Positions 5,227 to 59,780 of a DNA stretch of 64,000 nt are shown here, in pieces. This DNA is from Bryoerythrophyllum caledonicum (Eukaryota > Streptophyta > Bryopsida > Pottiales > Pottiaceae), in NCBI GenBank assembly GCA_963971425.1, contig OZ020521.1:25808012-25872011 (forward strand). Reading direction: 5' to 3'. Made by a program: the position numbers and the translations under genes. The notes under the pieces are model-generated. The model saw only the letters and a list, made by a program, of their open reading frames with translations, did not search any database and had not been told where the DNA came from. Each line of letters starts with the position of its first letter. Within the stretch, counting starts at the first letter, position 1.

Positions 5227-6355
5227 TAGGGTAGATCCGGATTCGTCCGGAATCCGGATTATGTACAATGATTTCCGGAAAGTATTTTCCGGAAGTCGGG
5301 AGGGTAGTTTGATTTGTCTCTGTTCCTCCTCAGAGGGGCTCCTGGAGTTTTTAAACGAGTGGCCGGAGTCCACTAATCTTGTTTTGTGTAAGTGGCTGGA
5401 TTTTCCACTGCCTTGTGATTTAAAGTGGCTAGACTTCCACTGTCCGGAACTTATAGTGACCGAACACCACTCTCCTATTCTACTAACCAGATGAATTGAT
5501 TGTTGCTGCTAGACTTAGACTCTCACGACATCCGGAAGGCCTTCCAGATGCGGTCACACAGAGATAAGTCCGGACTACAACGACATCCCGGTGAGTGAAT
5601 TGTGAGCCTCCGGGGACAATGGTGCTATCTCGTCAGAGTATTCCGTCTAGACCTACGCATCGGGCTTTTTCCTATCTTGGGGGAAAACTCCGATTTTAAT
5701 CGGAATTCAGGTTGACACGGATTACTCCGTCTCTTGGGGACTACCAGGAATACCTCTGCAGTTCGTCCCCTCCCGTCCTGGCTAGTTCCGGACCCTAGAG
5801 TCTACCAGACACACCTCCGCAATAGCCCTCCAGCTCTCTCAGGCGATCTCCCGACACGGATCTTGACCGGTATTCCTCTATCCGAACTAACCTTCACCAC
5901 ACCTTGAAAGGGTTTTCACACAACTTTGCTCACAAGAATGGATCCGCTACCCACAGAGTCAATACTACACACTAGAAGTACTAGAGAGCCAATCCGATAC
6001 AGGTAGTGCAATATATTACCAAGTGAGAAAGACAAGATAAAAGCGTTTTGCCAAAAACCCTTACTACTAAGTACTAACTAAGTTCTGTCTAAACTTAGCT
6101 TTTCTCCTAGCCGTCTATGGGAAGTCCACTAGATCTTATCTAAAAGATCCGAGATATCCGGATTAGTTCCAAATCGGATCTCAGATCCACAAATCACGAA
6201 ACGGTTCCGTCTCCGAAATTCCTATTCAAACTTATCAAAACGGAAAGTCGTCTCCATCAGCAGCCGGGTGCACTTGGGGCCCCATCGTTAATCGCTCCTA
6301 ATCCGGAGTCTAAGTCGAAGAAAAATAAGCAAAGGAGATCTAAAACCTAACTAAC

Positions 6356-6652
6356 CTAAGTCGGAGCACCTAGGCCCCGGTTTCTCCCACTCCGGCGGGA
6401 GGGGGAGATCTCTAGTGGAACACGCGACTTGCCCTTCGCCTTCTTCGACGTTGCAGGTGAAAGGTCGGACTTCCGGGTGGATGGTCCGGCTGTTGGAGGG
6501 ACAACGACCACCGGAGTACTGGAGTCCGGCGGTGGAGGAGGCTGTTCTGGTAATCCTTCCGGGACCGAGGGTGCTAGTGTTTCCGTCGCGGAAGTTGACC
6601 TGGTCTCTTGGACCATGTCTCTGTAGCTTCCGGACGAAGGGTGAAAGTCCAC
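6356..6652 (-). CDS. Hypothetical proline/serine-rich protein or first exon
   Basis: A 98-codon frame whose product is low-complexity, with a PPPPPDSS run, a VVVVPP run and a basic end (KKAKGK, RRSGRNR). It resembles the disordered, nuclear-localisation-like segments of transposon-encoded proteins. The stop lies next to a possible GTTAG donor, so it may be an exon. I do not recognise a family. It sits inside the TCCGGA-rich tract and may belong to the same element. Confidence 0.3.
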   Translation of the reverse strand: MDFHPSSGSYRDMVQETRSTSATETLAPSVPEGLPEQPPPPPDSSTPVVVVPPTAGPSTRKSDLSPATSKKAKGKSRVPLEISPSRRSGRNRGLGAPT

Positions 6653-7216
6653 TAAGGTGGTATATTTATAGTGTCACAAATGGTTTTGGAAAGAGTCACG
6701 AACCTTCTTTTGCTACATAGTGCAAATGTGGGATTGATCTTGGAAAACTATTGATGGAATGTCATAATTGCCTTGATTTAAAGTCTGGGAACCCCAAAAA
6801 TGTTGAGTTCCGACTTACGGTCTGGCCAATGTAGGTATATCTTTCATTAGTATATACCTGTTACAAGTATATGACATTTACCAAATATACTTATTTTGAG
6901 AGTTCTAGGAAGTTAAATACTTCAAAAGTCTTGGAACACATTCACGCCATAATGTGTTCATATAAAATAATTAAAAATTCTAGATCGAAAACTTACTTTC
7001 ACTTTTATTGCTAAAAAACAAGATATTTCTTCAAGGCTCCTACAATAGGACTCAATGTTGATTTTTTCTTTGATTTCTTATCCAATCAGATACATCATGC
7101 ATAGATCCATCTTCAAACATATTATTTTCTAAAGAAAAAGCTTTTTTTCCCACTAAATTGGGCAAAATCAAGTTTTTTTGTCCAAAAGTATATACTTTTG
7201 GGTGTATTTTTTTTTG

Positions 7217-7395
7217 CCCAAAAGTGAGTAACCCTAGCTGACTTCCACCCCGGACTCCTCGGTCCAGACGCCAACCTCCGGGACACAGACTTGGAGGGTA
7301 CCGGAAGATTGCCTTCCGCCGGAGGGTTTCCGGATGGGCTCTCATCAAACCCTTGTACTTCTCGTCCGGCGCCCCGACAAGTTCCCGGACGTAGA
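7217..7395 (-). pseudogene. Fragment of an unknown coding exon cut by LTR1
   Basis: About 57 codons (IYVRELVGAPDEKYKGLM near the upstream end, then a PGGWRLDRGVRGG stretch) with GC-rich third positions, unlike the AT-rich DNA on its downstream side. Coding character ends at 7395, where LTR1 starts, so the upstream part has been separated by the insertion. A GTCC just after the last plausible codons could be a donor. Family unknown. Confidence 0.3.
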
Positions 7396-9247
7396 TGTGA
7401 GCCAAATTAACCGCCCCTTAATGGGGTGGCTTATCTTGAACACAAGACCCTAAATGTGGGATACTGCCCCTTGTGCAACATCCTTCAACCATTCATACAA
7501 ACATGGTGATCCCCAAGTGTGGTCACTTAAGAGGGTTCGTTAATGATTAATAATGTGATGGCTGAATTTAGCCTTCAATTGAACGCAACCTTGTAACAAG
7601 CCTAAGTTCCACCTCGCAGCTCCGTTTTCCACGTTTTAAAGCTTAGATAGGTTCAGTTCAACCTTGTGAACTTGATTATAACCTCAACAACCAACTCCAG
7701 GCCTAAATGTGACCCTGACAGCAGCGACCAGCAGACAAGCTCTTCTTTTTGTATCAAAATTTATTTCTTCGTTTTCTTCGTGATTATGACTCCGTTTTCG
7801 AAGTTTGTTTTTTTGTATTCTTATTAGTTTTTCTTGCTTAACACGATGGCAGCCTTCAATTAATCATTCGACTCAATCAAGAACTCACAGCCAACGACCA
7901 GCAGTGCACACTTAACATATATGTTTATTCAAAATCATGCACCACACATTCACGTGTACATCACATGCATTCACACAAGTAATCCATTCGCACATTATAG
8001 CATGCATGAGCCTCCAACTACGTTCACTTACTCTTGTAGATTAAACCAATTATTTGGTTGAGTGGGTAGCAAACCCTAATCCTAGTGAAAAATTGGCAGC
8101 GCTACCGCGTGATTTTCTTGTGACTAGAAAATTAGGGTTCCCTTCATGCACAAAAAATTGATTACTGGTCCAAGAGAAGGGAGAAGCTCCTTGATTCCGT
8201 TCGATTCACCCTCCATCCTTGACCTTGTGCCCTCGGGGTCCAGCTTGTCTTCGTTCAGCTCGTGCTCTTGCGGTCCTGCTCGTCTTCTTGTGATCTTCTT
8301 CGTCCTGGCTCAACTCGTGCTCTTGCGATCCTGCTCGTCTTCTTGTGATCTTCTTTGTCCTGGCTCAGCTCGTACTCTTGCGATCCTGCTCGTCTTCTTG
8401 TGATCTTCTTCGTCTTGGTTCAGCTCGTGCTCTTGCGGTCCTGCTCGTCTTTTTGTGATCTTCTTCGTCTTGGCTCAACTCGTGCTCTTGCAATCCTGCT
8501 CGTCTCTTGTGATCTTCATCGTCTTGGTTCAGCTCGTGCTCTTGCGGTCCTGCTCGTCTTCTTGTGATCTTCTTCGTCCTGGTTCAGCTCGTGCTCTTGC
8601 GGTCCTGTTTGTCTTCTTGTGATCTTCGTCGTCTTGGTTCGGCTTGTGCTCTTGCGGTCTTGCTCGTCTTCTTGTGATCTTCATCGTCTTGGTTCAGCTC
8701 GTGCTCTTGCGGTCTTGCTCGTCTTCTTGTGATCTTCTTCGTCTTGGTTCAGCTCGTGCTCTTGCGGTCCTGCTCGTCTTTTTGTGATCTTCTTCGTCCT
8801 GGTTCAGCTCGTGCTCTTGCGGTCTTGCTCGTCTTCTTGTGATCTTCATCGTCTTGGTTCAGCTCGTGCTCTTGCGGTCTTGCTCGTCTTCTTGTGATCT
8901 TCTTCGTCCTGGTTCAGCTCGTGCTCTAGCGGTCCTGCTCGTCTTCTTGTATTCTTCTTCGTCCTGCTGTTGTGGCAGCTTCGGGCTCTCTCTCAAAAAA
9001 AATTCAGTCTCGCCTCTCTGCTCTCTCTCTGCCCACATTCCTTGCACACTACCCGAATGAGCCTCTCCAGGGGGTAACCCCCCCAAGCCCTTGCTCTCCT
9101 TGCGTTCCCAAGGATGTTCCCCGCCGCCTTTTCCACCTTCCATTAATGACTGTCCTCTTAAAACAACTATAACCTATAACACTTATCTCCGTGCCACCCT
9201 TGCATTAACAAAAGTGGGTGTCCCACTAACCAAGGCATATCTAAATA
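7396..9247 (+). mobile_element. LTR1 copy 1, truncated by insertion of element E
   Basis: It begins TGTGAGCCAAATTAACC, like the other LTR1 copies at 40250, 43659 and 62128, and follows their order: GGCTTATCTTGAACACAAG block, ACCAGCAG blocks, GCAGCGCTACCGCG block, internal minisatellite, then CACCCTTGCATT and GTGGGTGTCCCAC. Similarity stops after ATATCTAAAT at 9247, where the element E terminus begins. The missing 3' part should lie beyond E, outside this window. The flank GTAGA (7391-7395) is the candidate target duplication, but its partner is not visible. Confidence 0.8.
8229..8960 (+). repeat. 55-bp minisatellite inside LTR1 copy 1
   Basis: About 13-14 units of 55 bases, each starting TTCAGCTCGTGCTCTTGCGG and continuing with CTCGTCTTCTTGTGATCTTC. 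Some units differ by one to three bases. Long frames across it come from the absence of stops in the repeat and are not genes. Confidence 0.85.
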
Positions 9248-9262
9248 ACACCATATTCATTA
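9248..9262 (+). repeat. Left terminal inverted repeat of element E
   Basis: ACACCATATTCATTA is identical to the first 15 bases of element D's left end and differs at one base from D's right end. It lies exactly where LTR1 homology stops, and about 370 bases beyond the stop of E's last gene. In D the corresponding distance is about 450 bases, which supports this as a true element end. Confidence 0.7.
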
Positions 9263-9560
9263 TATTGGGAGATTTCCAGGGATTTAGGAGGTACACGCTC
9301 TTGAGTAATCCAAATGTCTTATCGTAGTGATGAAGCAAAACATGATTAGAATAGAAGTACAACATCATTTTTGTAAGATAATATGAAGATGTATGGGCAA
9401 ACAGTATCCAAATTGGAGAATCAAATGAAATAATATCTTTAATTGCACACTATATTTATAATATGATAGAAGTAATCCATATACAAAACATGCATCATCC
9501 TTTCCATGCAAAGAAAGGCTTCTACTACGACCAAAAACATACTCATTAATTCCTAGTCAA

Positions 9561-9593
9561 TGCACATTCTAGTATAGCCAAGCTGAATGTGCA
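9561..9593. repeat. Element E palindrome, degenerate copy
   Basis: A right arm AGCTGAATGTGCA faces a weaker left arm TGCACATTC, with a corrupted centre. It is the E-specific palindrome, 24 bases beyond the stop of E's last gene. Confidence 0.6.
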
Positions 9594-9836
9594 CTTATAC
9601 CACTCAGATCATAAATCTACTTGTTCTTTTCCACGTCACCAGAATTAGATTTCCTCAGCTCATCTCTACCCCTCTGAAGTTCATCTTTGCGGCTATAACC
9701 AGTATATGGCATTTGACTAGCGCATATATGTTCTTGCAGCCATTGGCGTTGCATTCGTTGATTCCAAGTAACAATAGGCATAGCAAGCGAGTGGCGACGG
9801 CGAGAGTGACACTTCGAGTTTTGGTTTAAACCATGC

Positions 9837-12370
9837 TGTGAGTGGCCAAAATGGCCCCTCACTCTTTTTCTTCAGTTTTTCCCGAGTTTTTGATAGAATT
9901 AACCAAATTTTAGTTAAATTGGTGGACAACCCACCTATTAGAGTCAAATTCCTAGATTAATAGGCCTAGTGCCATGAGGTGACACTAAATTTCCTATTCT
10001 TCCTCCTTCCTACTAATATGCTTGAAAGTGTAGTGGAAGTGGAATGGAAACGATGAGAAAGATAAAAAATGGAAAGAAAGGTCCTTGGAAAATGACTAAA
10101 ATTTGAGAAATGGGTCAAAAAATATGGAAAAAATTAGAAGAGTGCCTCCTAGCAGGTAGAAGTAGTGGTAAAATTTCTAGAATTTTCCGAGTTGAATTGC
10201 TATTTTATTCTAGGGGTTGACTAGTTGATCAATGGGTTGACCAATTGATCAATGGGTTGACCACTCGGGAAAAATACTTAAGGGACTCCGAAAATGCTAA
10301 GAAAATAAAGGTAGACTAATTAGGGTTTTGGGAGTCCAGCTGTGTGGTTAGTTTTTGAAGTTATAAGTAGATTGCAAATCATCAGTAGAAAGTATTAGAT
10401 CTAGTGTAATAGTCTTTAAAAGATCAAAAGAAAAAGAAAAAAAAAGAAGAAGAAAAGAAAAGAAGGTGGTTGGATGTACTTCCCCATGCACATGCAACAT
10501 GACAATTCTTGCCACCATGGATTTAATTTTAGGGAGGCTTGTCAGGAGCAAAGCGGCGAGTTAATGCTCGTGATAAACTAAAAACATGCAAAAACGGCTG
10601 TAAGTAGCCAATCCTGCACTTCTGTGAGAGGTCATGGGCTGCCTCATTAAAAGTAAGCTAGTCTTGTCGGGGAAGAAAAAAAAAAGACAGAAGAAAGAAA
10701 AAAAAGAAAAAAAAAGAAACCAGCCAGGCGGCATCCCTAGCGAAGAGAGCTGGAGCTCTCTGTTTTTCGGGGGCTTGTTGTTTTTTTTGTGCGCGCGATC
10801 AGCGTGAGCGAGGGGGCTCCTGTGAGTGTGCGAGCGAGTTGAGGATTCGGAGGCTAGGGCGTTGCGGAGAGTGCGCACCTGTGTACGCGAGGGTGCGAGC
10901 TGGAGGATCCAGGCGGGGAGAGTGCGCGTGCGTCCTGGGCGCGCGTGAGCTGGAAGTGAGGCGCGGTTGTGGAGAGAGGGCTGCATTTTTTTTTCTTGTG
11001 TGCGCCTGTGTGTGCGAGGCTCCTACGAGCAAGGGAGCTGGGGTTTTTTTTTTCGTTTTTTTTCTTACTGGTTCCGGCGGGTGCTGCGGAGAGTGCGCGA
11101 GAAGGAGCTTGTTCGCTTCCTTGTGTGCGCACCTGAGTGCGCGGAGCGAGAGCTCGCCCGAGCTGGAGAATCCGGCGTGGGGGGTACTGCGCCAGAGTGC
11201 GCGAGGTGTGAGTGTGCCGCGAGCTGGGAAGACTCGAGGAGGAGGATCGATCTGGAAGGTGCCGGCGATTGGAGCGCGGATGAGTGCCGGCGTTTGTAAA
11301 CGCCTCACCACAGGTGGTGTGTTTGAAGTGTGAGTCTGGAGTGAATTGCTGGAGGTCGTCATCCGGCTTGTCGTGGAGCTGTGTGCGAGGACTGTGGAGC
11401 TGGAGGTGTCTATGCGGGAAGATCAAGAGCTTGCGCGCGGTGCTATCAGCAGTGACGGCCTCGGTGAAGCAAGGGTTCACGGCACGTGCGCTGCGCGGCT
11501 ACTTGAATCAGGGAGTGACCCTTCCTTGGAACCCTGATCTCTCCCTCGTGTCTTGGTGTACTGATCAAGGTGGTAATAACGGGCTGCGTGTAGACATGCG
11601 ATGTTAGGTATTTAAATCCCGGTGGCCGAATCTCATGCGGAAGCGCTGGTAATTTTTTGCCAGAATTAGGTATTTGACCACCAAGTTCCACCAGAATTGA
11701 ACCGGTCCACAACCCATTGATTCTATGTTGTATGCATAAGTTCGTCTTCGGGATCAGAATGACGTGTTGAATTCGTTGGTGCATGAAATTGCTTGTGATG
11801 GTGGGTTCTATGTCCTCGGCCTGCTGATTTTGGTTTCAAGTGGACTATTCAAGTTGGAATTGAGCTGCTGATCATTTTGAGAGGATATTTTTTTGGATTC
11901 GGAGTCCCGAATCAAAAGATACAGGCTGCCGAAGTTGCTGCTCCAAAACAGGATCTGGATCAGGCCTGATCAGCCGACCTAAACTCGAAAAAAATAAATA
12001 AAACAACCAAAAATTAATTAAAAAATATATATATATATATAAAAGAAATAAATAAAATATTAATAGTAATAATCATAATAAATAATAACCATAATAATTA
12101 GGTAACAAATAATTAAATAATTACTTATACCTAATTAATTCATCCAGAGTTAGGTGTTTAAATTCCAAGAAAAGGTTAATCGAGTCCACTTAACTGGGTG
12201 AAAATAACAGTACTATTATAATTTTGAATATTTAAATAGATATGCCAAGATCCAAATCCAGTAAAATTAGAATTTACAGTTAAGCATAAGGAATGGTTTA
12301 AGTGTTGTAACAATAGGACCTTGTAGGTTTAAAAATTGATTCTCTTAGGGGGTCTATTTTTGGGCTTACA
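9837..12370 (+). mobile_element. Solo LTR, family LTR2, in element E's last exon
   Basis: 2,534 bases from TGTGAGTGG to GGGCTTACA, flanked by the 5-bp direct repeats CATGC at 9832-9836 and 12371-12375. TG...CA ends and a 5-bp duplication are hallmarks of LTR retroelements. There is no gag-pol, primer site or second LTR, so this is a recombined solo LTR. Features shared with the inverted copy at 34693-37457 include an A-rich tract, a GC-rich block rich in GAGCTC/GTGCGCG words (10780-11480), a TA-rich stretch (12000-12130) and the end GGTCTATTTTTGGG. Removing it restores the exon's frame. Confidence 0.92.
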
Positions 12371-12435
12371 CATGCTTTGGGGAAGCACTTTGACGCTCTA
12401 TAGTCCGTTGAAGCACCTAGCAAAAGAGACCACAA

Positions 12436-12463
12436 AAATCAGCTAAAACCAAGCTGAATATAT
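12436..12463. repeat. Element E palindrome, degenerate copy in an intron
   Basis: AATCAGCT faces AGCTGAATAT across seven bases. It sits within about 40 bases of the acceptor site used by the last exon of E gene 3. Confidence 0.5.
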
Positions 12464-12820
12464 AGCCACACATGTCAAAAAAACACAAAACACCATGACG
12501 TGGAATCCATTCAAATAATTATGTCCAATTTAGGTGTTCATGAAACTTGCAAAATCAAAACAGTGATGATTAAGAGGAGAAGATACAACACATACTAAAC
12601 AATAACAAAAAATAAGACCAACCTCATTATTAGAATGCGTTTTCCCACTTAGAGATTGAAGCTTGTTCTCATCATTTCCGACCGTTGCAACAGGCCGACA
12701 CGTAGTAGGAATTGTGGGCATTTTCTCTGATGGCACCGTCGTAGGTGGTTGAATTACACTAGCAAGTGTTTGAAGTGTGTGATCCTATGACGTAGGGACA
12801 AGTGAGTTAAAATGCAACTT

Positions 12821-12855
12821 GTGCATATTTAGCTCTATTCGAGCTGAATGTGCAC
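12821..12855. repeat. Element E palindrome in an intron
   Basis: GTGCATATTTAGCTC opposite GAGCTGAATGTGCAC, with a short centre; about two mismatches between arms. It lies in the intron just upstream of the exon at 12784-12623. Confidence 0.8.
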
Positions 12856-13404
12856 ATTGCCAAAAAAGACCTAGGACAAATACATAGAAGAGAGGGGGGG
12901 AATACCATGCTACGCGGGAGAAGAGACAATGATTCCTCACGTCCGCGAACAAGCACTTGGTCACCTTTCCCACAAATCCCATCAACACCGGGGGACCTCA
13001 AAATTTGACAATGTTGAAGAATAGAACGGGAGGCAACCTTTCGAATGCAAAATTTAGGTGGGGGGCTATTGACTTCATCTTCTTCAACAGGAGCCATCCA
13101 AGAGTCCATCGAATAATCAGCTGCTCCGCGGGAGTATAAATCATTATGTTTACGTGGAATTCGATATCCACAATCTTCTGACTTCAAAACAAAATCCATG
13201 GTGGCAATACAACAATTTACATGAGAAAATGATTAACGGCTCTTTTTCAAACATGGAAGCAAAGAGAAAACAAAAACTTACCAATCCATCAATAACAAAC
13301 AAAAAATTACAAACAAATATCAAAGAACTGACAACTGCCACTTGACTTACAAGATATGTATAGTATAACACATCAACACATTTATGATTGATAGGAGAGA
13401 ACTT

Positions 13405-14103: not shown

Positions 14104-14105
14104 GT

Positions 14106-14232
14106 ATTATACGAAGAAGTATATGTTCTTGTATTGTTATATAACATGTTATATAACAATACTTCGTTCAGATGGGAAAGAGTGGAGGTACATATTATAT
14201 AACAATAGAGCACATAATATTATACGAAGAAG
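14106..14232. repeat. Direct repeats flanking a small AT-rich insertion
   Basis: ATTATACGAAGAAG occurs at 14106-14119 and again at 14219-14232. The intervening DNA is AT-rich and holds a palindrome around TGTTATATAACATG. This could be a miniature insertion with a target duplication or a local tandem duplication. It lies between the intron acceptor (TTTTGCAG) and the first HAD motif of E gene 2. Confidence 0.6.
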
Positions 14233-14477
14233 GAAGCACTGCAAAAGACAGCACAATCTTTTTGGCCATGAAGTGGTGAGATTAAAGTTATACCTGTGAA
14301 TTGATGGCCAAAGTAGCATCAATGGGCTTTGCACCAACCATAGGAGGATGCTGAGAAGAGCCAACATCATCTTTTATGAAATCGACTTCGAGGCTTAGAG
14401 CATATGAAATTCAGCAAATTTGATTATAGGTTATGAACAAACATGCCCCAAAAATGCAACGATACTAAACAAGATCA

Positions 14478-14506
14478 ACATTCAGCTCGACTCTAACTGA
14501 TTGTGC
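14478..14506. repeat. Element E palindrome, half-degenerate
   Basis: The left arm ATTCAGCTCGA is intact and the right arm (CTAACTGATTGTGC) is eroded. It lies in element E DNA upstream of the HAD-like gene. Confidence 0.6.
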
Positions 14507-14607
14507 AAGTGTATGAGTACTCAACAATTGGATGCACAAGGGAGAGGACAACTTGAATTTCAACATGATGTACACAGAGGGAGAACAACATGATATACAC
14601 AAAGTAA

Positions 14608-26859: not shown

Positions 26860-26895
26860 CCTCTCTCTCTCTCTCTCACTCTCTCTCTCTCTCTC

Positions 26896-50167: not shown

Positions 50168-51744
50168 GCTACCCCGCCAGAGCCCCAGAACCATGCCAGT
50201 CCGCCAGAACCCGTTGAGCCTGCTTCAGTGCCAGATCTTGATAGCCCTGTTTTGGTATCTGGGCCGATAAGCCTGCTCCTTCGCCAGAGCTCGATATGCC
50301 TGCTCCTCCGCCAGGACCCGTTCAGGCTCCTCCTCCGCAAGAGCCCGATAACCCTTCTCCAAAGGAGATGGACCCCGAGGAGATCAGACTGGCATTGCGC
50401 TTTATCAAGGAAGCACAGGAATCTGGGATGTCTAGTATTTGGGTTTATCCTGGACTCGAAGAGCGTGTTATGAACAGAAGGGAAGGATAGAAGGCGGCGT
50501 ATACGTGCATGTCGAAGGAGAACCGCGGAGTATGTACGTCAAACTGTGTGTCCTGGGAGAAAGAGCCCTCGCTCTGCTACGAAGCCGAGGAGCATGACGC
50601 ATCCATGATAGAGAAGAACCTCGACATTATTGTAGAGGTCCTAATGCGGCGGTGAGTGTCGTCGTCTATGTTATCGTGTTCTCTGACACCTATTGTTTAT
50701 CATCACCTGTTGTCTAACGTCTGCTTTCTTCTGAATTGCAGGCCTCGTTTTATTCACCCGAAGGACCTGACTGGAGGTATGAGGTTTTTCGGTCCAGACC
50801 TTCGATAAGCCGTGGATGTCTCGCTCGCACTACAGGACTGGCATTGCGTGCTAAAGGACAAGCGGGAAATGGAAGGCACATTTCTGGATTTCATCCTTAG
50901 GCATGTCGTCTACCGTGCGAAGGAGCATGTTCGAATCCAGTATCATCGCACGCACAACTGGTTATCGGCGACTTTGTAGTGCTATCTCGCGGATGAAGCG
51001 AAGGGTTGAGATGACATCGTGAGCTTTCTCAGCCGCTCGTTCCGTAGCACCACCAAGACGCCGAATACCCTTATCGTCCCTTACCACGATAAGGGTCACT
51101 GGAGCGTATTCGTCGTGGAGCAAAGGCGAACGTATCACCTGGACCCAGCGAAAGGCATGCACAAGGGTCGGGAAGTGAACAACTTCATCTTCCTTGTGCA
51201 CATGGGATGGGCAACCGCGAGGGGCGTGAGGATCGGATCTCGGAGTTGGACTGAATGGCCGATAAGGTTGCCTTTGCCTAGTCAGAAAGAAAGCTAGGAG
51301 TGTGGTTTCATGGCAGGCTTGGGCTTCTGGCAGTACCTGATCGCACGTGGTGGGCGCAAAGAGGCGGAGGAGAAGACCGTGACGGAGACCAAATATCTAA
51401 ACTGGGACGGGAAGAAGTCGTACCGATGGTTCATGCAAGTGCTGTATACGGAGATTGTCGCACCGCTTCCGTTCCACGATGCCGTTAATCTATGTGGTCA
51501 GGATACGGTGGAGTTCGAAAGCGGAAGTCCGGACGTAGTTTTCGTGGAAGCCGGTACAGAGACGGCGAAGAAGAAGGAAGTCCCAGTTCTTTGTATTTCG
51601 GAGATAGTGGGGGATTGTGATCTTCAGGGCTTCAACGCGCTGACAAACCCACCAGTGACTCGAGGAAGGCGGAAGAAGTCAACCGCGCCGAAAAGCCCGA
51701 AAAAAACGAGAAAACCGAAGGGCACCACCAAGACGAAGAAGTAG
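50168..51744 (+). pseudogene. Element F gene 2: ULP1-like C48 cysteine protease
   Basis: Pro/Arg-rich start at the gap edge, then EPDNPSPKEMDPEEIRLAL, an intron at 50652-50741, and the protease core. Catalytic residues are visible in the family order: His in KGHWSVFVV (51097), Asp in YHLDPAKG (51142), Gln in PSQKES and Cys in ECGFM (51301). A basic tail (RGRRKKS, KTRKPKG) ends at TAG 51742. In-frame stops: TAG 50488, TAA 50806, TAG 50977, TGA 51007 and TAG 51295, the last two codons before the catalytic Cys. The family cleaves SUMO or related modifiers; in MULEs its role is unknown. The copy cannot make an active enzyme unless stops are bypassed. The 5' end is lost in the gap. Confidence 0.8.
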
Positions 51745-52121
51745 GCAATAAGGGGGGGTGTTGTACATAGTCGATAGACTCCAGGAATTTGTACAGATTA
51801 ATAGGATGCCGATGTTGTACATTTCATTCATTGTAAATGACAATTTTTTCGATAGTGTACATAAACGGATTTTGGGACCCCCTTGCAGAGGCTTGTAAGC
51901 GGAACTTAAAATCCAGTCTTTGCCGATTATATTGAATGTTGAGTTTTAAGTTTCAAACTAAAGAAATATCACTTCAGTGGAAATTTCAGCCGATGCATGG
52001 AACTTAATCTAAGAGCATCTTATCGGCAGTATTCTACCGATAAGATTACTAATGGTTATCGGTGCACGTTTGTAGCTGAAATCCTCTGCCCTTTATACTC
52101 ATCCACATCGGTGCCGATAAC
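51745..52121. other. Spacer between convergent genes of element F
   Basis: The ULP1 gene (plus) and transposase (minus) converge here. It holds several CTTATCGG/CCGATAA words (51923, 52020, 52035, 52054, 52112), including TTATCGGCAGTATTCTACCGATAA as a loose inverted pair. Probably both 3' ends. Confidence 0.6.
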
Positions 52122-55100
52122 CTAAGTCGTTTCTTGAGTTAGTCTTTCGCTAGGTGGAAGGGACCTCACCCGAAAACCTCTGGAATCCAGGAAGTCATGC
52201 AACCTTCGGAGCCTCATTCCAAGACCGTCTTCATTTGTGGGGAGCGATGCAGCTATATCCTGGAGTGGATGAAGCATTCCGGCTTCGATTTCAGCCTCCA
52301 ACCTTGAGAGGGTGGCGTTCGTGTTGCGCAAAGCTGCATCCAAGTGTCTTGCTAGCAACGGTTGGCGATAAGCCTTCTCGAGTAGCTTCAGGACAAACTG
52401 ATGCATACCATCAAAGTCGCATACCCATGTCTCCCCTAATTCTCGAAGGTTGGAAGTCACTGGGGTTACATCTCCGGCTTCGGTATCGGAGGGAACATCA
52501 TTATCGCGGAAGCCCTCGGTATTCGGGTGTCGACCATTGTCTTGGCGGAGAAGATTCGTTATTCCTCCTTGGATTGTGCCGCGAAGGAAGCCCAGATATC
52601 TAGCAATTTTGCCCTCCGCCAAGTCAGGTCTTGTCATTTTCAGGACCTTAACCTGGTGCTTACAGATGTTATCTTTCTGGGAATGAACACATTGGCAGAC
52701 GGCCCATTCGGTGCATGGATTGTATACCGCATACATAATGTGTCTCCTATTCGAGGATTTCACGTATGCAGGACCTCCCGACCACTCGGGCAAGGTGACC
52801 ACATTATCGGGAATTGTGTTTGCTTGGTTGATTGCATTGACCATGATCTGCCGCTGCCTCCTGTTCTTTATAAAACCGTTTAGCTTACAGTAGTGACTGT
52901 AATCATACTTCTCGATGACATTTCCAGTGAGCTCATAAATAAGCCAGTCCATCCTTCGGCCGATAAGCTTCCTTTTGGATTGCCGGAGCACTGCTTTCAT
53001 GTTAGAATGGTATGATTCGATCGCTGCAGTGGTGTCCTGGCCAGCATGGGGGATTTTCTGGTCTCCCACAACCCACATTTTGATTTTCGGGAGCCATTCC
53101 TTGTCGAAGTACTTCCAGTATGCATCAGCGTCTGGCAAGAGAGCCTTAGCTTCGCCGTAACCGTGCCGCACCCACTCTACCAAATTCCACACCTTATCGC
53201 CGGAAGCTCTCGCCGAAGGGTCTTGGAAGTCACTAGGTATCTCTGATACGTACATAAGTGAGCCCACAATTTGCAAAGCTCCGGCCCTCATCTCCATGTC
53301 TTTCAACTTAGCACATGCATTCTTCTGCCACGCTCGACCCACATGCCAGAGACATAGAAATAGATGCGAGTGCGGCCAAACCTCCCTGCGATAACCCGAC
53401 ACACCGATAAGTACAACTCGCTGAAGCCCGTCACCCGATAACGTAAGAATGCTAAATTGCTTACCGAAGAGAGTTGATCTCATTATCGGCGTCGTCAAGT
53501 ACAAAGGCAGTGGGTCTCCAGTCCGGCCTTATCTGCACCAACTTCTGGTTCAGAGCGCGCATCCAAGGGACGAGATCTGCTTATTTGGATTTCGCAGTGA
53601 TCACGAAAGCCACTGGAACACCGTTTCTCCACTCGTCGAATACCATCATCGTGAAGAGTGGATACTGGACACGCAAGCAAGAAATTAATCGATAGAATAG
53701 TGAGTGCTCCTAATTTTTATACGGACCCTACATGGAGCACGGTAAAGGTATGTGTACCTTTTTGTTGTTCGTTGCGAATGTCCCGTCTATAGCAATAATG
53801 TTATCGTGACTGTATTTCAGCATCATGTGCCTCTGAAATGGGGTTTGAATCCCAATTACGAAGGGTACGTCATCGGCATTCAGCACTCCGTCGACCTTGC
53901 TGCCCGGGTCTTGGTAGTAAAAAACCGTACCTCGGTTTTCTCGGACCCACATTCTCACACTCTCAGCGTCGTTGTTGTGTTTCTTGTATAGTTCTTGCGC
54001 ACGGACTCCGCATATGTTGCGGATGTCCTCCATGCTAAGGAAACAATCCCGAGAAGGCGTAAGAGTGCCCTCATCCCGTGCCTTCAGTACCAGCTTCAAG
54101 TGCTTCTGTATTATAGCTGCCATCGGAACTTGCTCTTCAAATTGCCTACGAACCCAAAGCCTTACTTCCTCCGATATGTACTTCCGAAAGCGGAGCTTTC
54201 CCCTCTGCACATTGTCCTTATCGTAGACGATGAGGCCCTGTGTGTCGACATGTTCCGAGCAAAAGTACCCTATCTCGGCGATATATGGTAGAAAATAGTA
54301 CCTCTTTACGTAGAATCGACATTGGCAGCCCACTTTCATAGAGCCCCCCTCCTTCGCATCAGTGGCACGAGGGCCTTTCTGGCCAGCGCCGGACGTAAGT
54401 TGTTTCCCTTTGTGATTGTATTTCGATGGCGTTGGTGTCATTTCGGGCGTGATAGCTTGGATCTTGTCCCTGTTGTCTTCGGGACCGTATTGACAACGCC
54501 ATCTGCTTATCGGCGTTGACCATCAGGGATACGTGCGGTACTGAAGAGATGTAATGGCACTGCCGATAAGCAGATCTACCGTGTATATTGAATGTGATAT
54601 CAGAGGTCGTGATTCACTTACCGCTGGTACTCGATGTGGCAGTTCCACCGATAGTGCGCCTTCTCGCCGACGTTTGTGGGGTCGTTCTTGTCGCGGACAA
54701 AGGTAGTCTCTACATCCTTTCGGCCAGACTGCTCACCCTCCACGAAATCCGAGACCCTATCCCAGGGAATGTAGGCGATAAGCTTGGACTGCTTCCTCTT
54801 CGATGATTGCGGATCGTCTACGAACCTCGTATCATTCTCGGCCTCCATGTTCCACCTAAGATATTTCCACGTCAAAATCCCTGTAGGAGGGTTCTATAAT
54901 GAATCGCGCATCCGAAGAACCTTGTGACCGTGTTTCTTCAGGTAGTCTGCATGCTGGCCTTCCCGGAACGCGGCATCAAGGTCCTCCACCCCCTTCTCAC
55001 GCACGCCAGCCGGTTTCTTTCTCCCTTGACGCCTCCATTTCCTCCCTGCTGCCCCGTTATCGGCAACGGTTGGTGCCGCCGTCTCGCCAGAATTCCCATT

Positions 55101-55142
55101 CGGCCTGTCTTGGATGGGGAGATTGAGATCGAGGAACTCCAT
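52122..55142 (-). pseudogene. Element F transposase, MuDR type with SWIM finger
   Basis: Four exons: 55142-54622, 54502-53758, 53664-53465 and 53385-52122, joined by GT-AG introns that keep frame. The N-terminus begins MEFLDLNLPIQDRP inside the terminal repeat. A FAR1-like Cys/His zinc region follows (RWNCHIEY, RCQYGPED, VGCQCRFYVKRY). Catalytic acids fit the MULE DDE triad: AIDGTFATNN, then FVLDDADNEI with LFLCLWHVGRAW after it, then TTAAIESYHSNMK. A SWIM finger (AVCQCVHSQKDNICKHQVKV) and a C-terminal tail complete it. In-frame stops: TAG 54894 and TAA 53581. The acceptors at 53386 and 54503 lie within the F motif (TTATCGCAG, GATAAGCAG). Expected role: cut-and-paste mobilisation; this copy is inactive. 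Confidence 0.85.
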
Positions 55143-55516
55143 TCACGCGGAGACAAGCACTCCCCTTCCGGCAAGGTGCTACACGGCACAATAGATCGTG
55201 CGAAAGATGGCGCAGTACGAAACGATGTGGATGACACTTCGCGCCGGCATCCGCCAAGAAGGGCGGGTCATTCTGGAGTACACGTGGCGGGGGCGAGAAG
55301 GTGATTTCGGTGATCCGGAGAAGGCGGGGGTGAAGGGGCTTTTCGGCGAGAAGTGGCGAAAAGAGAGACGGGCAGCGCGAAATAATTGAGGGTGAGAGTG
55401 GCAGTTATCGTGGGAAGGAGGCGAAAAGGCGCTTGGGAAGAAGGGCCGGTCTTCGCGGTGTCAGGGCTAAAACCGGGCCCTGACACCGCGAACCCGGATT
55501 GACTGTAGAGACCGGG
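54901..55516 (-). repeat. Right long terminal inverted repeat of element F
   Basis: Reads CCCGGTCTCTACAGTCAATC from the outside and matches 45434-46080 inverted. It contains the transposase promoter and first codons, so the opposite end carries a non-functional mirror of them. Confidence 0.9.
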
Positions 55517-56142
55517 GGTGTCCCACTAACCAAGGAATATCTAAATCTAAACATTAACTCCATGCCACATGGGTGTGCATGATCTCAATAAGTGAGCTAT
55601 TAGCTAATTTCCAAGGAGGCTAAATCTAATTTAATCTACCTAAATTGAATCCTCTTTGCTTGGGGTAATTCCTAATTTTACTTAGCGAGTGATGAGGGGG
55701 TTGTCCAAGCCTTTTGGACCTTTCCCTCTATTTTTTTAAGGGCTTTTAAGCCTCTTCTTTTCTTTTCTTCCCTTCACCATCATTTCTCTTCTTCTTCCAT
55801 TTTTTTGGTTTCGTGATTTCTTCATTGTGACCAATTGCGATCCACGACTTGGTAGGAGGTAAATTCTTCTCCATCACTATTAATTTTAATTTTTTTCTAT
55901 TGTTTTTTGTCTTTTCTGTCTTTTCTTCATTTTTTCTTTTCTATTTATTTTTTGGCTAACTACCTAAATTCCGCGATTGCCAATAAGTGGTTCCTAGTTA
56001 AGGAATTAGCGCATGGAAGGCTATTTAGCTATTTTGATCAAAAGACCACGAGTAAACCAATGGGATAACCCATTTTCACCACTTATTAGCCTTAATGGAC
56101 CCGATGTGAGGTCCATTCATCACCGTGAGCCATTTTTGCGGC

Positions 56143-57133
56143 TCACAGGTTTGCAAATTCAGCTCGAGTCGAGCTGAATATGCAATCGCAATCAGGGTTG
56201 CTAACCTTATATGCCTTGTCGTTGGCTCTTGGAGCTCCACGTCCACCCGTCGTATTCTTCTTCTGTGGTGGTGTTGGGCGACCTAGATTGGTCCATGTCG
56301 ACTGTGTAGATAAGATGTTGGTCGACCACGTTGGCTTGAAGACGGACAAGTGATTGACTCGGTTGTAGAATGCCGAGATCTTACGCAGCTTCTCTTTGTC
56401 ATCGGACCATACGACAAAGCACTTCCATACGCGAAAGTGTCTCACTGTGGTCTCGTCAATAGATTCATCCGCCATCATCGCTAAGCTTGCCGCCACGCTA
56501 TGTTGGTCATTTATAATGAAGAATTTTCCGTTTCGAATGTCTTCCCAATCTCCATTAGGCTTCTCGTTTGTTATCGGCATCACGCAACGCGTCTGCCTCA
56601 TGGAATTATCAGGCATGTGTATGAGGTAATTCATTACCACATCCATGCCCTTCTTCTCAAAGGCTCGAATTGTCCTGTCCTCAGGTGCTGGTGATAACTG
56701 CCGCACGTCCAGCTCCTACTTCATGTCAGGGTTGTAGAGGAAGCAGTCCTGGCAATCTGTCCAGAACTTTTCGTACACTTCGGATGCATTCCCGTAGTCA
56801 ATGGCTTCTCCAGGACGCAACTCATAGGACAGATTGGTGATCGCAGAGACGATGTTGGCCTCAACGTCTGGCTTACCAACTTCTTGGTTTTTTTGCACTA
56901 GATTATAGTGCTCTTCGAGTTGAAGCCTCCGGAGCAAGTGATCGACGCTGCCCCTTTGGTGGCGTTGGATTTGTAGACAACGACTTCCTCGGATTAACCT
57001 TGTCAGTTTGAGCCATTGTAGTCCTCTGGCCAGTGTTACCGCCTTCAGGGTTGTCATACTGGCTGAACGTCCAGTATGCCCGTTCGTTCGATTCGCCTGT
57101 CCGATAGAGCTCTCGCTCGTTCGGGTAAGTCAA
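56143..57133 (-). pseudogene. Element E gene 1, first exon: ParB-like part, 5' end lost
   Basis: Starts within the gene (TYPNERELYRTGE at 57133), shifts one frame near 56920, then SEVYEKFWTDCQDCFLYNPD, TAG at 56716, and DVRQLSPAPEDRTIRAFEKK to the ParB-like box IINDQHSVAASLAM and CFVVWSDDKEKLRKISAFYN. It aligns to 28740-29591 of element D throughout, including the donor at 56206. The region equivalent to D 28211-28740 is missing, so E is truncated here. The intron that follows holds E palindromes and the LTR1/F insertion. Confidence 0.6.
56152..56184. repeat. E palindrome beside the LTR1 insertion
   Basis: Arms TGCAAATTCAGCTCGA and TCGAGCTGAATATGCA with centre G, one mismatch. It overlaps the right GGTTT target duplication by one base, so LTR1 integrated at the edge of the motif. 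Confidence 0.9.
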
Positions 57134-57152
57134 CTGAGGGTTGACTTACCCG
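57122..57152. repeat. Perfect hairpin at the element E / element G junction
   Basis: CGGGTAAGTCAAC and its exact complement GTTGACTTACCCG, separated by five bases. The left arm belongs to the truncated E gene; similarity to element D ends here. It may be a breakpoint-associated inversion, a terminal repeat of G, or chance. Confidence 0.7.
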
Positions 57153-57258
57153 CTAGATAAAAAACAGGCGACGTGGCAGCCATGTTGGCACCACATAACT
57201 GCCACGTAGGAGAGGGTCATGTTTGAGTAGGATTGGGGACTAATGGCAAGGAGGAAGT

Positions 57259-57342
57259 GGGGCGGAGACGTCCCCGCCCCATACGGGCAGGACGGAGACG
57301 TCTCTGCCTCTACTAGTGCAGGGGCGGGGACGTCTCCGCCCC
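57259..57342. repeat. Element G palindromes, left cluster
   Basis: Three copies of a 22-bp palindrome, arm GGGGCGGAGAC or GGGGCGGGGAC, centred on GACGTC, at 57259-57280, 57291-57310 and 57321-57342. The same sequence forms the array at 59521-59780. Confidence 0.9.
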
Positions 57343-57755
57343 TTCATGAGTTAGTTAATAGGGTTTAACTATTGACACTATGTTGGTAAACTAAAATTTA
57401 TGTTTACTGTAGTATACACTAAATGTGAACCCATACACCAATTGCAAATGAGGCACTTAGTGTAGAAACATAACCGGACACTAAATGCCATTTACTACAC
57501 TATGTATCAATTTTTGTAGAAATAATAAATTTATTTCTTACACTTGTGCACATTTAGTGTATCAATAGTGTATCAATTGTTATTTGTGCTTGAACAAATG
57601 CAAATCTCGGATTTAGAATTTAAGATTTGGACGTATTCAATTTTGATTAAAATATAACATATGGCAATTGCCAATTACACATATTCTTCTACGAAGATGC
57701 CGTATTGCCTATTTAACCACCACATGCGAAACTAATGCAGCTAATTAACAAAAAA
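57343..57755. other. AT-rich spacer with ACACTAAATG words
   Basis: No gene. TACACTAAATG, ACACTTAGTG-type and CATTTAGTGTA words occur about five times on both strands (57410-57560), resembling subterminal repeats of a DNA transposon. It follows the 3' end of the kinase-like gene. Confidence 0.5.
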
Positions 57756-59283
57756 CTATTGTCGGTAACAACATAGAGGCATAGTCCAGTTGTGGGGGGG
57801 TTTCATTAATGTGTCTAAAACATCTGGTACAGAAGACTGTTCTTCGAGCAGTTGTTTTTGCAACGCTGTAAGTTTTAGCTTCAAGTTTACATATTGCTCC
57901 GAATTTTTGCTGGTGAAATACGAAGTGTCCCAATCTTCTTTCCAAATTTTTTCACAAATCCAACCCACCGCAAATGCATTTGTTACCTTGGAGTAGAGGT
58001 GTGACCGTTGCATGACTTCAAGCAAGTTGGTGGAGTCCTGCGGCCCAAAATTATAGAACAGTTCTGGTGCCACAAACCGTCGCCGCTCTCTCTCTAGTTG
58101 AAGCTCCTCCTTGAATTGATAACCATACCTTGATGGCTCATTCTTCACAACCCGACTAGAAAGCCCCCAATCGCAAATTCCGATGTACACCGCATCGGGT
58201 TTCCACTCATCAAAGTGGAGCAAAACATTCGATGGAGAGATGTCATTGTGTATATAATTTGCATCGTGTCATTTTTCCACAATGACAAGCAATGATAGCG
58301 CGAGATTCACTCGATTTTGGCGGTAAGTTTTTACCCACCGAGGCTCTTGGATTGACAACCCGGTATTCGGATGCATCTCAATCCGTTCAAATGGCAATGC
58401 TTCGTCCACTTTCGAATCAAACTTGGACCAAAAAGAAGCCAGAGATCCCCCATTCTACCAGAGCGTGTACCCTTCCATAGTTTTCGGGTGGATGTACGCA
58501 AGTCTAATGATCCTTGGATGCACTACCGGACACCCTCCAGCCTGGTTGATGATGTTTCGGCGCTTCTCCCTATCGTTGGTGTTGGTCGGAGTCTTTCCGG
58601 CAAAGCAAATCCAACTTGGAATGTTTTCCAATTTGGTTATCATCACCTTCCGTACAGCCCCATAGCCACCCACCGCACTCTGCCCTGGCATTGGAATCAC
58701 TTTAGCGCAACTTTCAAGCCACTTGAAAGTTCCACCAAAGCAGTGAGCCAAAATTTGCTCCTCAATAGTCGCCCTGGATCATCCTCATCTTCGCCACTAG
58801 AGCGCGCTCCTCCAGGTTCCAGGTGCTCTCATCCTCCTTCTTCTCCGTGACGTAACACCAGCTTGCAACGATATTGGTGGTCAGTGCGGTCACATGTGTG
58901 TCCAACCACTCCGAATGCAACCAATAATCTGAGAAATTATTAAATTTCTCAGATTTATCAAGGTTTGACATTAATTCGTGTCGCATGTCAACTGTCAACT
59001 TGTAGTATCCTTCTTCGTTGTGGTTCAGATAGCTCCTCGTCAACGCCCCTGTCGACCGACGCTTGTAAAACTCGACGGCAATCCCTCTACATTCAACCAT
59101 GTATTCGTGCGAGGGCATGTCCGGATTTGGTGACTTCTTCCACCTCTTCCCGCTCGATGACGACAGATTCAATGATCCCGAAGTCAACTCCGTGTTGGTG
59201 GATGGAAGAACCGTCTCATCAACATCATCCAAGTCCATAAATACTAGGCGCTTCTCCATCGACCTACTTCCTTCTCCCGCCAT
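57756..59283 (-). pseudogene. Element G: protein-kinase-like gene with stops and a frameshift
   Basis: Minus strand from ATG 59283 (MAGEGSRSMEKRLVFMDLDD). The N-terminal 170 residues are unknown. After one frame change near 58775 comes a glycine-rich loop (SAVGGYGAVRKVMI), then, through TAG 58455 and TGA 58269 in frame, YIHNDISPSNVLL (catalytic loop, HND instead of HRD, with Asp and Asn kept), GICDWGLSSRV (DWG instead of DFG) and RRFVAPELF (APE). These are the ordered signatures of eukaryotic protein kinases. The gene ends in TAG at 57756. It diverges from the RING gene of the same element across the G palindrome array. Atypical HND/DWG suggest a diverged family. Whether it is a captured host kinase is inference. 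Confidence 0.7.
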
Positions 59284-59520
59284 ATGTGATTGTCAACTCC
59301 CTACCGTGGTCGAAATTCCAAGTTGATGGTTTTAAAAAAAACCACAAAGAGTCTAGGTACAATAAATGAACCAAGCCCGATCACCCACCAAACTCACCTT
59401 CAGGCCGCAAAGCGAATCGACACGTGAGGCCTAGGGAGTGGACTTGGCAGAGAATAAGGACAAAATCTCCCCTATTTTTATGGTGTAGGGTTCTTCTTGC
59501 GAAGACGTCCGCGTCCTACC
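59284..59520. other. Start of the divergent promoter region of element G
   Basis: Short AT-moderate stretch between the kinase-like start codon and the palindrome array; no features beyond ordinary sequence. Confidence 0.45.
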
Positions 59521-59780
59521 TGGGCAGGGCGGGGACGTCTCCACCCTCGCCCGGTAAGGGGCGGAAACATCCCCGCCCCTGCCCCGGTAGGGGCGGGGAC
59601 GTCTCCGCCCGTGCCCAGAAGGGGGCGGAGACGTCTCCGCCCCCGCCCTGTTTGGGGCGGGGACGTCTCCGCCCCTGCCTATATAGGGCGGGGACGTCTC
59701 CGCCCCTGCCCGAGGTGAGGCGGAGACGTCCCCGCCCCATACAGGCAGGGAAGGAGACGTCCCCGCCCTGCCCGGGGACC
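59521..59780. promoter_or_regulatory. Element G palindrome array between divergent genes
   Basis: About seven to eight copies of GGGGCGG[AG]GACGTCTCCGCCCC-type sequence, spaced roughly 35-40 bases, with CCTGCCC or CCCGCCC between them. It lies between the start of the minus-strand kinase-like gene and the start of the plus-strand RING gene, the likely shared promoter. Frames through it are low-complexity artefacts. The array size and spacing suit cooperative binding by a dimeric protein; that is inference. Confidence 0.8.

Follow-up and report, generated by a model that had tools for sequence, protein, structure and literature searches.

The window, the whole stretch of 64,000 nt that was analysed, is a nest of transposons within a moss genome of 437 Mb. 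Element D is inserted inside element E, which is also split by several LTR-like insertions. The right ends of E and of G were not found in the window. The elements and insertions are located as follows:

5227–7395: TCCGGA-rich tract with 13 copies, following the RING gene of element A
9247–14762, − strand: left part of E, with the terminus AACACCATATTCATTA at 9247 and the LTR-like insertion 9837–12370 inside
9837–12370, + strand: solo-LTR-like insertion in E, TSD CATGC
14763–38468, + strand: element D, lying within E and about 23.7 kb long when its 2.8 kb LTR-like insertion is counted; termini AACACCATATTCATTA.. and AACCCCATATTCATTA.., putative 4-bp TSD AATG
34693–37457, − strand: solo-LTR-like insertion in D, TSD ATAGC, of the same family as the 9837–12370 insertion in inverse orientation
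38473–57125, − strand: right part of E, with LTR-like insertions at 40250–42468 and 43659–56147 (F nested in the latter)
40250–42468, + strand: solo-LTR-like insertion in E, TSD CTATA
43659–56147, + strand: solo-LTR-like insertion in E, TSD GGTTT, containing F
45433–55515: element F, MULE-like, with TIRs of about 650 bp, the 9-bp TSD GGGTGTCCC and 26 CCGATAA words
48638–48765, + strand: tandem array of CCCTTATCGT-type units in F
57126–62127: element G, with a kinase-like ORF on the − strand and a RING ORF on the + strand; left end probable, placed by eye

D and E are homologous, with genes and one terminus in common, and A and G are homologous elements too, at odds with the first-pass annotation, which had described the elements as unrelated-looking. 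The DUF7869 domain of one D gene presumably has a transposase-like role; we found no paper on this domain in the open-access literature searched. The big gene has no known domains, and Pfam, NCBIfam, PHROGs and PDB searches recognised no DNA-binding or chromatin domain in its protein. In the window copy of D, the ATG of the leader gives no in-frame start for this gene. The genes of D and E are:

13666–14106: NIF ORF of E, in its left part
15651–17942, − strand: D gene with a DUF7869 domain, with related proteins in Ceratodon and Physcomitrium
28218–29591, + strand: exon 1 of the D big gene, no known domains, motif INGQHSVEAS
29592–29842, + strand: D intron 1 (inferred), in which a palindrome begins 20 bases past the donor
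29843–31176, + strand: exon 2 of the D big gene
33310–34026, + strand: NIF-phosphatase-like ORF of D
about 56194–56817, 42525–43519 and 39902–40249, − strand: exon pieces of the E big gene, frame broken in places

D carries a palindrome modelled as TTATCCTCGANTCGAGGATAA, with matches at ≤4 mismatches counted as sites. Scanning of the window gave 19 sites, every one within 18569–34411; the palindrome reported earlier, with 18 copies, is real. At ≤6 mismatches there were 26 matches versus 2.45 in shuffles (maximum 5), three of the 26 being E palindromes and four weak. The sites stay away from the ends of D, by about 1.3 kb on the right (with the LTR-like insertion discounted) and 3.8 kb on the left:

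18569–18589: 2 mismatches, upstream of the DUF7869 gene
18839–18859: 3 mismatches
18987–19007: 0 mismatches
19052–19072: 2 mismatches
19198–19218: 1 mismatch
19295–19315: 0 mismatches
19369–19389: 1 mismatch
20310–20330: 3 mismatches, inside a repeat common to 25324–25680 and 26110–26258
25521–25541: 3 mismatches
26215–26235: 3 mismatches
27796–27816: leader site 1, 0 mismatches, aligns with a site of contig L001
27879–27899: leader site 2, 4 mismatches, aligns with an L001 site
27999–28019: leader site 3, 4 mismatches, aligns with an L001 site
28146–28166: leader site 4, 3 mismatches, aligns with an L001 site
29612–29632: intron 1 at +20, 2 mismatches, aligns with an L001 site
29713–29733: intron 1, 2 mismatches, L001 counterpart absent
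32460–32480: 4 mismatches, possibly coding
32619–32639: 2 mismatches, possibly coding
34391–34411: 4 mismatches, downstream of the NIF ORF

For E, a 33-mer model gave eight sites at ≤7 mismatches, all in E sequence. Relaxed to ≤11 mismatches, the scan gave 11 matches, of which one, at 565, falls outside E; shuffles gave 0.15. The E palindrome had been put at 10 copies; it is likewise real, but we count eight sites plus one degenerate. Because D and the LTR-like insertions interrupt E, these scattered positions belong to one element:

9561–9593: degenerate, 9 mismatches, 314 bp from the E end
12822–12854: 3 mismatches
14475–14507: 7 mismatches
14608–14640: 0 mismatches
39811–39843: 0 mismatches, past the exon-2 homologue, a site location also found in D copies
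39871–39903: 2 mismatches, past the exon-2 homologue like the 39811 site
43568–43600: intron 1, 3 mismatches
43613–43645: intron 1, 4 mismatches
56152–56184: intron 1, 1 mismatch, centre 37 bases past the inferred donor

H, a third subfamily related to D and E, carries a palindrome of its own. The palindromes of D, E and H are 21–33 bp long and are built on one core, CTCG-N3-CGAG (consensus CTCGANTCGAG), flanked by arms that differ by subfamily. Since the base beside the D centre varies (A 50%, G 40%), only CTCG-N3-CGAG is common to all three, and the exact form CTCGANTCGAG is rare in D, with 4 sites over the 31 loci sampled. In the copies examined, palindromes with changed arms occupy homologous positions: in D, E and H the centre lies 30–38 bases past the inferred donor of the homologous intron, as seen in 9 of the 10 loci displayed, while locus L067 has no exact-core site.

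Genome-wide, the exact palindromes of D, E and H occur 385, 231 and 1573 times, with 0 occurrences of each reversed control, and an exact hybrid of a D left and an E right arm occurs 0 times. The D motif (≤4 mismatches) was present in 30/30 sampled D copies and the E motif (≤6) in 0/30, and E copies had the E motif in 30/30 and the D motif in 0/30; these copies were the best-scored ones (scoring covered 95 of 1510 D and 150 of 1367 E candidates), and since many are near-identical they are not independent. Assigned to the closest type, 147/147 sites at D loci were D, those at E loci were 252 E and 6 ties, and those at H loci 37 H, 6 ties and 2 D. On contig C1 we compared the first 50 listed sites per palindrome type with listed exons. 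With 23 E exons at ≥73% and 7 H exons listed, 39/50 E sites lay within 20 kb of an E exon (random 1.1, maximum 5) and 0/50 near an H exon. For the H sites, with 4 H exons and 2 E exons listed, 20/50 had an H exon no more than 10 kb away (random 0.28) and 0/50 were near an E exon. None of the 50 D sites was near a listed E exon, and 2/50 were near one of the 3 D exons listed, which is not above random (maximum 4). Mutually exclusive, the palindromes follow the copies of their own family, as had been proposed, and neither an even spread in host DNA nor copies without the motif appeared among the D, E and H copies and sites examined. Self-recognition as a pattern is well supported.

The sites are conserved despite diverged flanks. 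Among nine introns (36 pairs) the palindrome was 92.5% identical and the ungapped flanks 40.5%, motif identity exceeding flank identity in 33/36 pairs; picking the site on its match raises the former value, and ungapped alignment understates the latter. The intron-1 site was kept in 7/7 D-like copies at 71–81% identity, picked by us from 95 listed. Contig L001, from another record, holds 5 D sites versus 0 in 1000 shuffles, each aligning with a site of D, although identity over the aligned non-coding DNA, with the motifs counted in, is only 55–58% (shuffled mean 44–46%). Of the 7 outside proteins that extend far enough, 5 show the D palindrome as a read-through peptide, L001 among them, and the other 2 show none; three palindrome-bearing outside proteins show 51–59% protein identity.

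E sites are regularly spaced and variable in number, recurring at 45, 127, 52, 75 and 50 bp with 1 to 11 per locus. Judged by site spacing and number, with the units unaligned, the E leader clusters are tandem-repeat expansions; most D sites are not arranged in this way. With zone borders set by us, 0/131 D sites fell in exon 2 or the covered exon-1 stretch (27/30 D loci oriented) and 0/162 E sites in the exon-1 zone (26/30 E loci oriented), while 54/131 D sites were downstream of intron 2 in a possibly coding region. For D and E this agrees with the earlier view that the palindromes are rarely in codons and, as in a VANC-like layout, sit in introns and upstream DNA.

The other elements gave a mixed picture. 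In F, the TIRs (about 650 bp at 84.5%) and GGGTGTCCC on both sides, a MULE-type 9-bp TSD, were accompanied by sub-threshold matches, one to a ZSWIM1-3 RNaseH-like (SWIM-type) domain (E 0.036) and one Ulp1-like. The palindrome CTTATCG/CGATAAG ascribed to F had 0 matches with gaps of 0–6. The enriched word is the non-palindromic CCGATAA (26 versus 3.9 expected, tandem array left out), and 16/26 of its sites are inside long ORF frames that we selected and that span 61% of F, so that rarity in codons does not hold there. For G, the 11 palindromes at ≤5 mismatches (0.05 in shuffles) match the earlier estimate of about 11, and G passes the co-localisation check; the G-type palindrome occurs 1110 times exactly genome-wide, its reversed control 0 times. 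The G sites form two groups:

57259–57342: three palindromes, about 130–220 bp from 57126, where the left end of G probably lies
59526–59769: cluster of eight palindromes spaced about 32 bp apart and located between the divergent G genes

The statement that copies are not concentrated at the termini stands for the internal D sites but is doubtful for G. The case for the TCCGGA tract is weak, and its comparability with the elements is not supported: TCCGGA, only 6 bp long, reaches 6.0 per kb (13 copies) in 5227–7395 versus 0.29 per kb elsewhere, and none of the tract's ten most enriched 7-/8-mers under an order-3 model holds it.

Several known systems resemble this arrangement. ParB-parS partition uses palindromic sites, and ParB has a GxH-type motif that the INGQHS of the big protein may resemble; however, no ParB match, including its N-terminal domain, was found for the big protein in Pfam, NCBIfam, PHROGs or PDB. 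In CACTA/Spm, the element-encoded TnpA probably binds short motifs that recur in the element and affects methylation, and this action of an element protein through repeated motifs would be the likeness. TnpA motifs are subterminal, whereas D sites and most E sites are internal, and the D/E termini AACACC.. with a putative 4-bp TSD differ as well; D, with the terminus AACACCATATTC.. and putative TSD AATG, was rejected as a CACTA/Spm element, which has CACTA termini and a 3-bp TSD. The G palindromes are possibly subterminal motifs of this kind.

For the targets of VANC, the anti-silencing proteins of VANDAL MULEs in Arabidopsis, which remove methylation over whole copies, tandem repeats and a layout in introns and upstream DNA are reported (PMC5735166); the repeats gain and lose units, and related elements differ in motif (PMC5735166, PMC10398659). 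D and E, in the copies sampled, are alike in having family-specific motifs in non-coding DNA that differ between related families, in their placement in accessory-gene introns and upstream of the putative transposase gene, and in tandem-repeat expansion of motif regions, here the E leader clusters. VANC motifs are given there as 8–9 bp, and the string "palindrom" is absent from the available texts (PMC5735166, PMC10398659), whereas the D/E dyads span 21–33 bp with one common core. VANDALs are MULEs and VANCs carry DUF1985 and DUF287. Among the D/E proteins covered by the scan, which may have missed genes, one from D has DUF7869 and none matched a MULE transposase; neither DUF1985 nor DUF287 had a Pfam match at E≤5 in the D/E big-gene exons and 10 outside relatives, and on these proteins D and E were rejected as VANDAL/VANC members. 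In the available text of PMC12730594, fungal transposons carrying TET/JBP dioxygenases likewise bear a gene thought to aid escape from methylation-based silencing; it is an enzyme cargo with no family-specific site code described there, and the proteins we scanned gave no TET/JBP match.

The location of sites in leaders, promoters and just inside intron 1, and dyads with a loosely constrained centre that suit a dimeric regulator, would also fit autoregulation operators for an element-encoded repressor or activator, with no anti-silencing. We consider this rather unlikely, as some sites (20310, 25521, 26215) are kilobases away from the start of a gene and the tandem expansion in E leaders exceeds the needs of a simple operator. 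Sites for the transposase, or for copy pairing in transposition, could be family-specific too, and the G sites at 57259–57342 and the degenerate E site lie near element ends; the distances of the D sites from both ends, and the fact that the conserved D sites are those in introns and leaders, make this improbable.

We see a similarly small chance that the palindromes act in RNA by forming hairpins, such as close to the 5′ splice site, the centre being at +30 to +38 in all three subfamilies. Their place after the inferred donor is fixed, and changes in both arms exceed expectation in E (28 versus 15) and H (30 versus 14) and are often complementary (21/28 and 16/30), but in D they fall below it (27 versus 48), the excess in E and H may be inherited because copies are related, and sites also occur in upstream DNA, which may not be transcribed. 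A host factor reading the CTCG-N3-CGAG common to three subfamilies leaves the subfamily-conserved arms and the absence of exact hybrids unexplained, and inert repeats copied with the element would not remain far more alike than their flanks; we give either very little credence.

On balance we lean towards the view that the palindromes are subfamily-specific sites of an element-encoded dimeric protein with VANC-like anti-silencing activity. D, E and H would be subfamilies of one moss DNA-transposon superfamily with a common big gene, D and E being further linked by the NIF-phosphatase-like gene and the terminus. Each subfamily would keep a palindrome set in leader and introns, and D also upstream of its DUF7869 gene. 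As the arms changed, the specificity of the protein would have shifted with them, restricting it to copies of its own subfamily; once bound, it would hold the non-coding control regions of these copies open, in the way that VANC acts on VANDAL. We infer protein binding, the identity of the binding protein and an effect on silencing, and the role may be anti-silencing or copy sensing. More tentatively, and with some doubt, the palindromes might form a self-recognition code, with a common core for all subfamilies and swappable arms as subfamily mark, read by an undescribed protein family that arose independently of VANC, possibly through ParB-like loading at palindromes and spreading.

To our knowledge, sequence-specific self-recognition of transposons is understood in detail only for VANDALs, and we found no paper on such a system as the present one in the open-access literature searched. 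It appears to be a second self-recognition system, in other elements and in a plant lineage distant from that of the VANDALs. Because its long dyad sites join one core to arms that vary, at matching places in homologous introns, co-evolution of protein and site would be directly testable here.

The window, 64 kb of a 437 Mb genome, is a nest of transposons. The elements and genes concerned are as follows, the exons and introns of the big gene being inferred from the sequence:

14763..38468, + strand: element D, inserted in E
9247..14762 and 38473..57125, - strand: element E, in two pieces
45433..55515: element F
57126..62127: element G
1.9-4.9 kb: element A
15651-17942: DUF7869 protein
28218..29591, + strand: exon 1 of the big gene of D
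29592..29842, + strand: intron 1 of this gene
29843..31176, + strand: exon 2 of this gene
33310-34026 (in D) and 13666-14106 (in E): NIF (CTD-phosphatase-like) genes
57759-58268, 61173-62129 and 3631-4968: RING-finger proteins in G and A, and a protein-kinase-like ORF in G

The elements had been described in the first-pass annotation as unrelated-looking, and this view does not hold for D and E or for A and G. D and E have the terminus AACACCATATTCATTA, the large gene (pieces 28-36% identical, E-values down to 2e-31) and the NIF-phosphatase-like gene (about 39% identity, E about 2e-19) in common, and A and G are related through their RING proteins. The NIF genes are, to our knowledge, an unusual cargo for DNA transposons. 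The named plant relatives of the DUF7869 protein are from two mosses, Ceratodon purpureus and Physcomitrium patens, so the host is probably a moss or close to one. D is inserted in E, AATG being its putative target duplication of 4 bp, and the gene order suggests that the two stretches of E, 9.2-14.8 kb and 38.5-57.1 kb, are one element. Four insertions of the TG..CA type, each with its own 5-bp duplication (CATGC, ATAGC, CTATA, GGTTT), break up D and E, and F lies in one of them, flanked by the 9-bp duplication GGGTGTCCC. A reading of the large inverted repeats at 9837-12370 and 34693-37457 as TIRs of one 27 kb element was dropped, because each of the two looks like a TG..CA insertion of its own, and their 5-bp duplications differ. 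Likewise, the E motifs do not lie in three unrelated places, which fit a single element split by insertions. Related CT-rich minisatellite arrays with differing unit lengths occur within copies of one LTR-like family (8247-8963, 41092-41222, 44522-45145, 62784-64000), and 200 N each are found at 1387-1586 and 49968-50167.

In the window, the D and E palindromes greatly exceed chance expectation and, at ≤4 mismatches, are confined to their own element. The D palindrome is TTATC-CTCGA-N-TCGAG-GATAA and the E palindrome TGCATATTCAG-CTCGA-N-TCGAG-CTGAATATGCA; the common core was missed in the first-pass annotation. The firm part of this core is CTCG-N3-CGAG. Next to the centre, the sampled D copies have A in 50% and G in 40%. 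Exact CTCGANTCGAG is rare among them (4 sites in 31 loci), while all 385 exact genomic D sites include it. E also holds a perfect 32-bp palindrome, GTATTGTTATATAACATGTTATATAACAATAC (14131-14162), which is unrelated to the E motif. The other proposed motifs fared differently. That of G is real and mostly a tandem cluster. For F, the palindrome with a bias to non-coding DNA was rejected, as the enriched word CCGATAA (computed without the F tandem array) is directional and lacks this bias. The enrichment of TCCGGA in its tract was confirmed, but the word is too short to be given equal weight with the D and E motifs. Inspection by eye showed four dyads resembling AGTGG..CCACT, their spacers 7-9 bp long, in a 130-bp part of this tract (5351-5480); these may be what element A really has as its motif.

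Genome-wide, 385 exact D 21-mers, 231 exact E 33-mers and 1110 G-type palindromes (two degenerate positions) were counted, with 0 for each reversed control. A further subfamily, H, 50-52% identical to E, carries the palindrome CTTTAGCTCGANTCGAGCTAAAG (1573 exact, control 0). D sites were present in 30/30 D copies (L006-L035) and E sites in 30/30 E copies (L036-L065), and each motif in 0/30 copies of the other element; these were the best-scored copies, many of them near-identical. In these copies, the expected confinement to, and presence in, further copies of the same element is borne out. Two copies with 58% identity to E (L072, L073) have degenerate E-like sites. When every site at ≤4 mismatches was given to the nearest of the three types, D loci had 147/147 D sites, E loci 252 E sites and 6 ties, and the six H loci (L066-L071) 37 H sites, 6 ties and 2 D sites; the six H copies, like two copies of another group, M, and seven D-like copies, were hand-picked from longer lists, the samples of H and M being small. 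An exact D/E hybrid palindrome was found 0 times in the genome.

On one contig of the same genome (C1), we compared the first 50 sites listed with the exons listed. E sites were near E exons in 39/50 cases (random 1.08; eight listed exons at 53-63% to E left out), H sites near H exons in 20/50 (random 0.28) and G sites near G exons in 22/50 (random 0.30), with a G site at 6/6 G exons listed. Among the exons listed, 0/50 E sites were near H exons, and 0/50 D sites and 0/50 H sites near E exons. For D sites, 2/50 were near the only three D exons listed, which is not above random. These figures are lower bounds, since scoring covered only the best 95 of 1510 candidates for D, 150 of 1367 for E and 125 of 1751 for G (in its case, the RING ORF).

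The sites are conserved in position. A 4235 bp contig filed as an uncultured cyanobacterium MAG (L001:1-4235; CADCWO010000074.1, AVDCRST_MAG81) carries a spliced D-type gene close to that of the window, with the same intron, and is evidently eukaryotic, moss-like contamination of a bacterial genome record. Its leader holds four D palindromes and its intron 1 a fifth, all at ≤2 mismatches (0 in 1000 shuffles) and each aligning to a D site; the second intron-1 site of the window copy has no counterpart there. With the motifs counted in, identity over the aligned non-coding DNA is 55-58%, against a mean of 44-46% (maximum 50-56%) after shuffling. The intron-1 site was kept in 7/7 D-like copies (71-81% identity), 19-20 bases after the donor. 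Over nine introns (36 pairs) the motif was 92.5% identical, a value inflated by picking the site on its match, versus 40.5% for the flanks, a value lowered by allowing no gaps; the motif exceeded the flank in 33 pairs. In one and the same intron, the palindrome centre lies about 30 (D), 37 (E) and 38 (H) bases past the inferred donor, as counted by hand in nine of ten loci, L067 having no exact-core site.

Intron 2 holds 26 palindrome sites over 27 oriented D loci (orientation failed for 3/30 D and 4/30 E loci). In the window copy this palindrome (31180-31215) lacks its right half, which is kept in L010, and the E gap matching D intron 2 holds two sites (39811, 39871). E loci have 1-11 sites at recurring spacings of 45, 127, 52, 75 and 50 bp. 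Twelve (P0123-P0134) of 19 listed outside proteins related to exon 1 were read, P0135-P0141 being left out. Seven of them extend sufficiently beyond the splice site. Five of these, among them P0124, which is the L001 gene, show the D palindrome as a peptide (YPR.ED or ILDSRI), and it was not found in the other two, P0127 and P0134. P0125, P0126 and P0128 stop early, P0131 diverges first and P0132 ends first.

As a candidate binder of these sites the big protein comes first, since many of the conserved ones lie in its gene. It had no convincing match in Pfam, NCBIfam, PHROGs or PDB; the best weak matches were PHROG 36950 (unknown function; with P0133, E 0.0019), a PDB chain (E 0.058) and Pfam entries no better than 0.03, and exon 2 of D had no useful match in viral contigs. 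A ParB-like and methyltransferase-like appearance, which we had presumed, found no support in the libraries searched. The QHS segment of the protein was present in 61/76 loci; the 15 without it include both M loci and one D-like locus. In a tree of 27 hand-chosen rows (without P0124, the same gene as L001), the H copies form a clade (100/100), as do the E copies (88/80), and the D type is scattered on the other side among unreadable rows; long branches call for caution with this tree. In the big gene of the window D copy, the ATG of the leader (28211-28240) gives exon 1 no in-frame start, and there are stops in the exon-3 region, so this copy may be defective.

In homologous introns the palindromes keep their position while their arms differ, which argues for co-evolution of the sites with a predicted reader and against inert repeats. 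Alternatively, the palindromes could work by RNA pairing. An arm-compensation test gave a mixed picture here: the arm changes in E and H favour pairing, with a count inflated by related copies, and those in D go against it. The dyad centre is loosely constrained, mostly C or G, and the information is spread over both arms; these features fit a set of dyad sites read by a predicted dimer.

In two papers on VANDAL elements, the targets of the anti-silencing protein VANC are placed in introns of VANB21 and VANC21, upstream of VANA21 and in tandem repeats (PMC5735166; PMC10398659), and the layout of the sites here, in introns and upstream DNA and, for E, at repeated spacings, corresponds to what is described there. 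VANDALs have a MULE transposase and DUF1985/DUF287, whereas none of these was found in the D and E proteins scanned, among which one of D has DUF7869 in place of a MULE transposase. Judged by these domains, the D/E system would work like VANDAL/VANC but is not a member of it. Nothing on palindromic family motifs of this kind was found in the open-access literature searched. Owing to the VANC-like layout and the dimer-type sites we adopt, with moderate confidence, the view that the D, E and H palindromes serve a VANC-like, subfamily-specific anti-silencing, in which a protein encoded by the element would counter silencing of the copies of its own subfamily, as VANC does.
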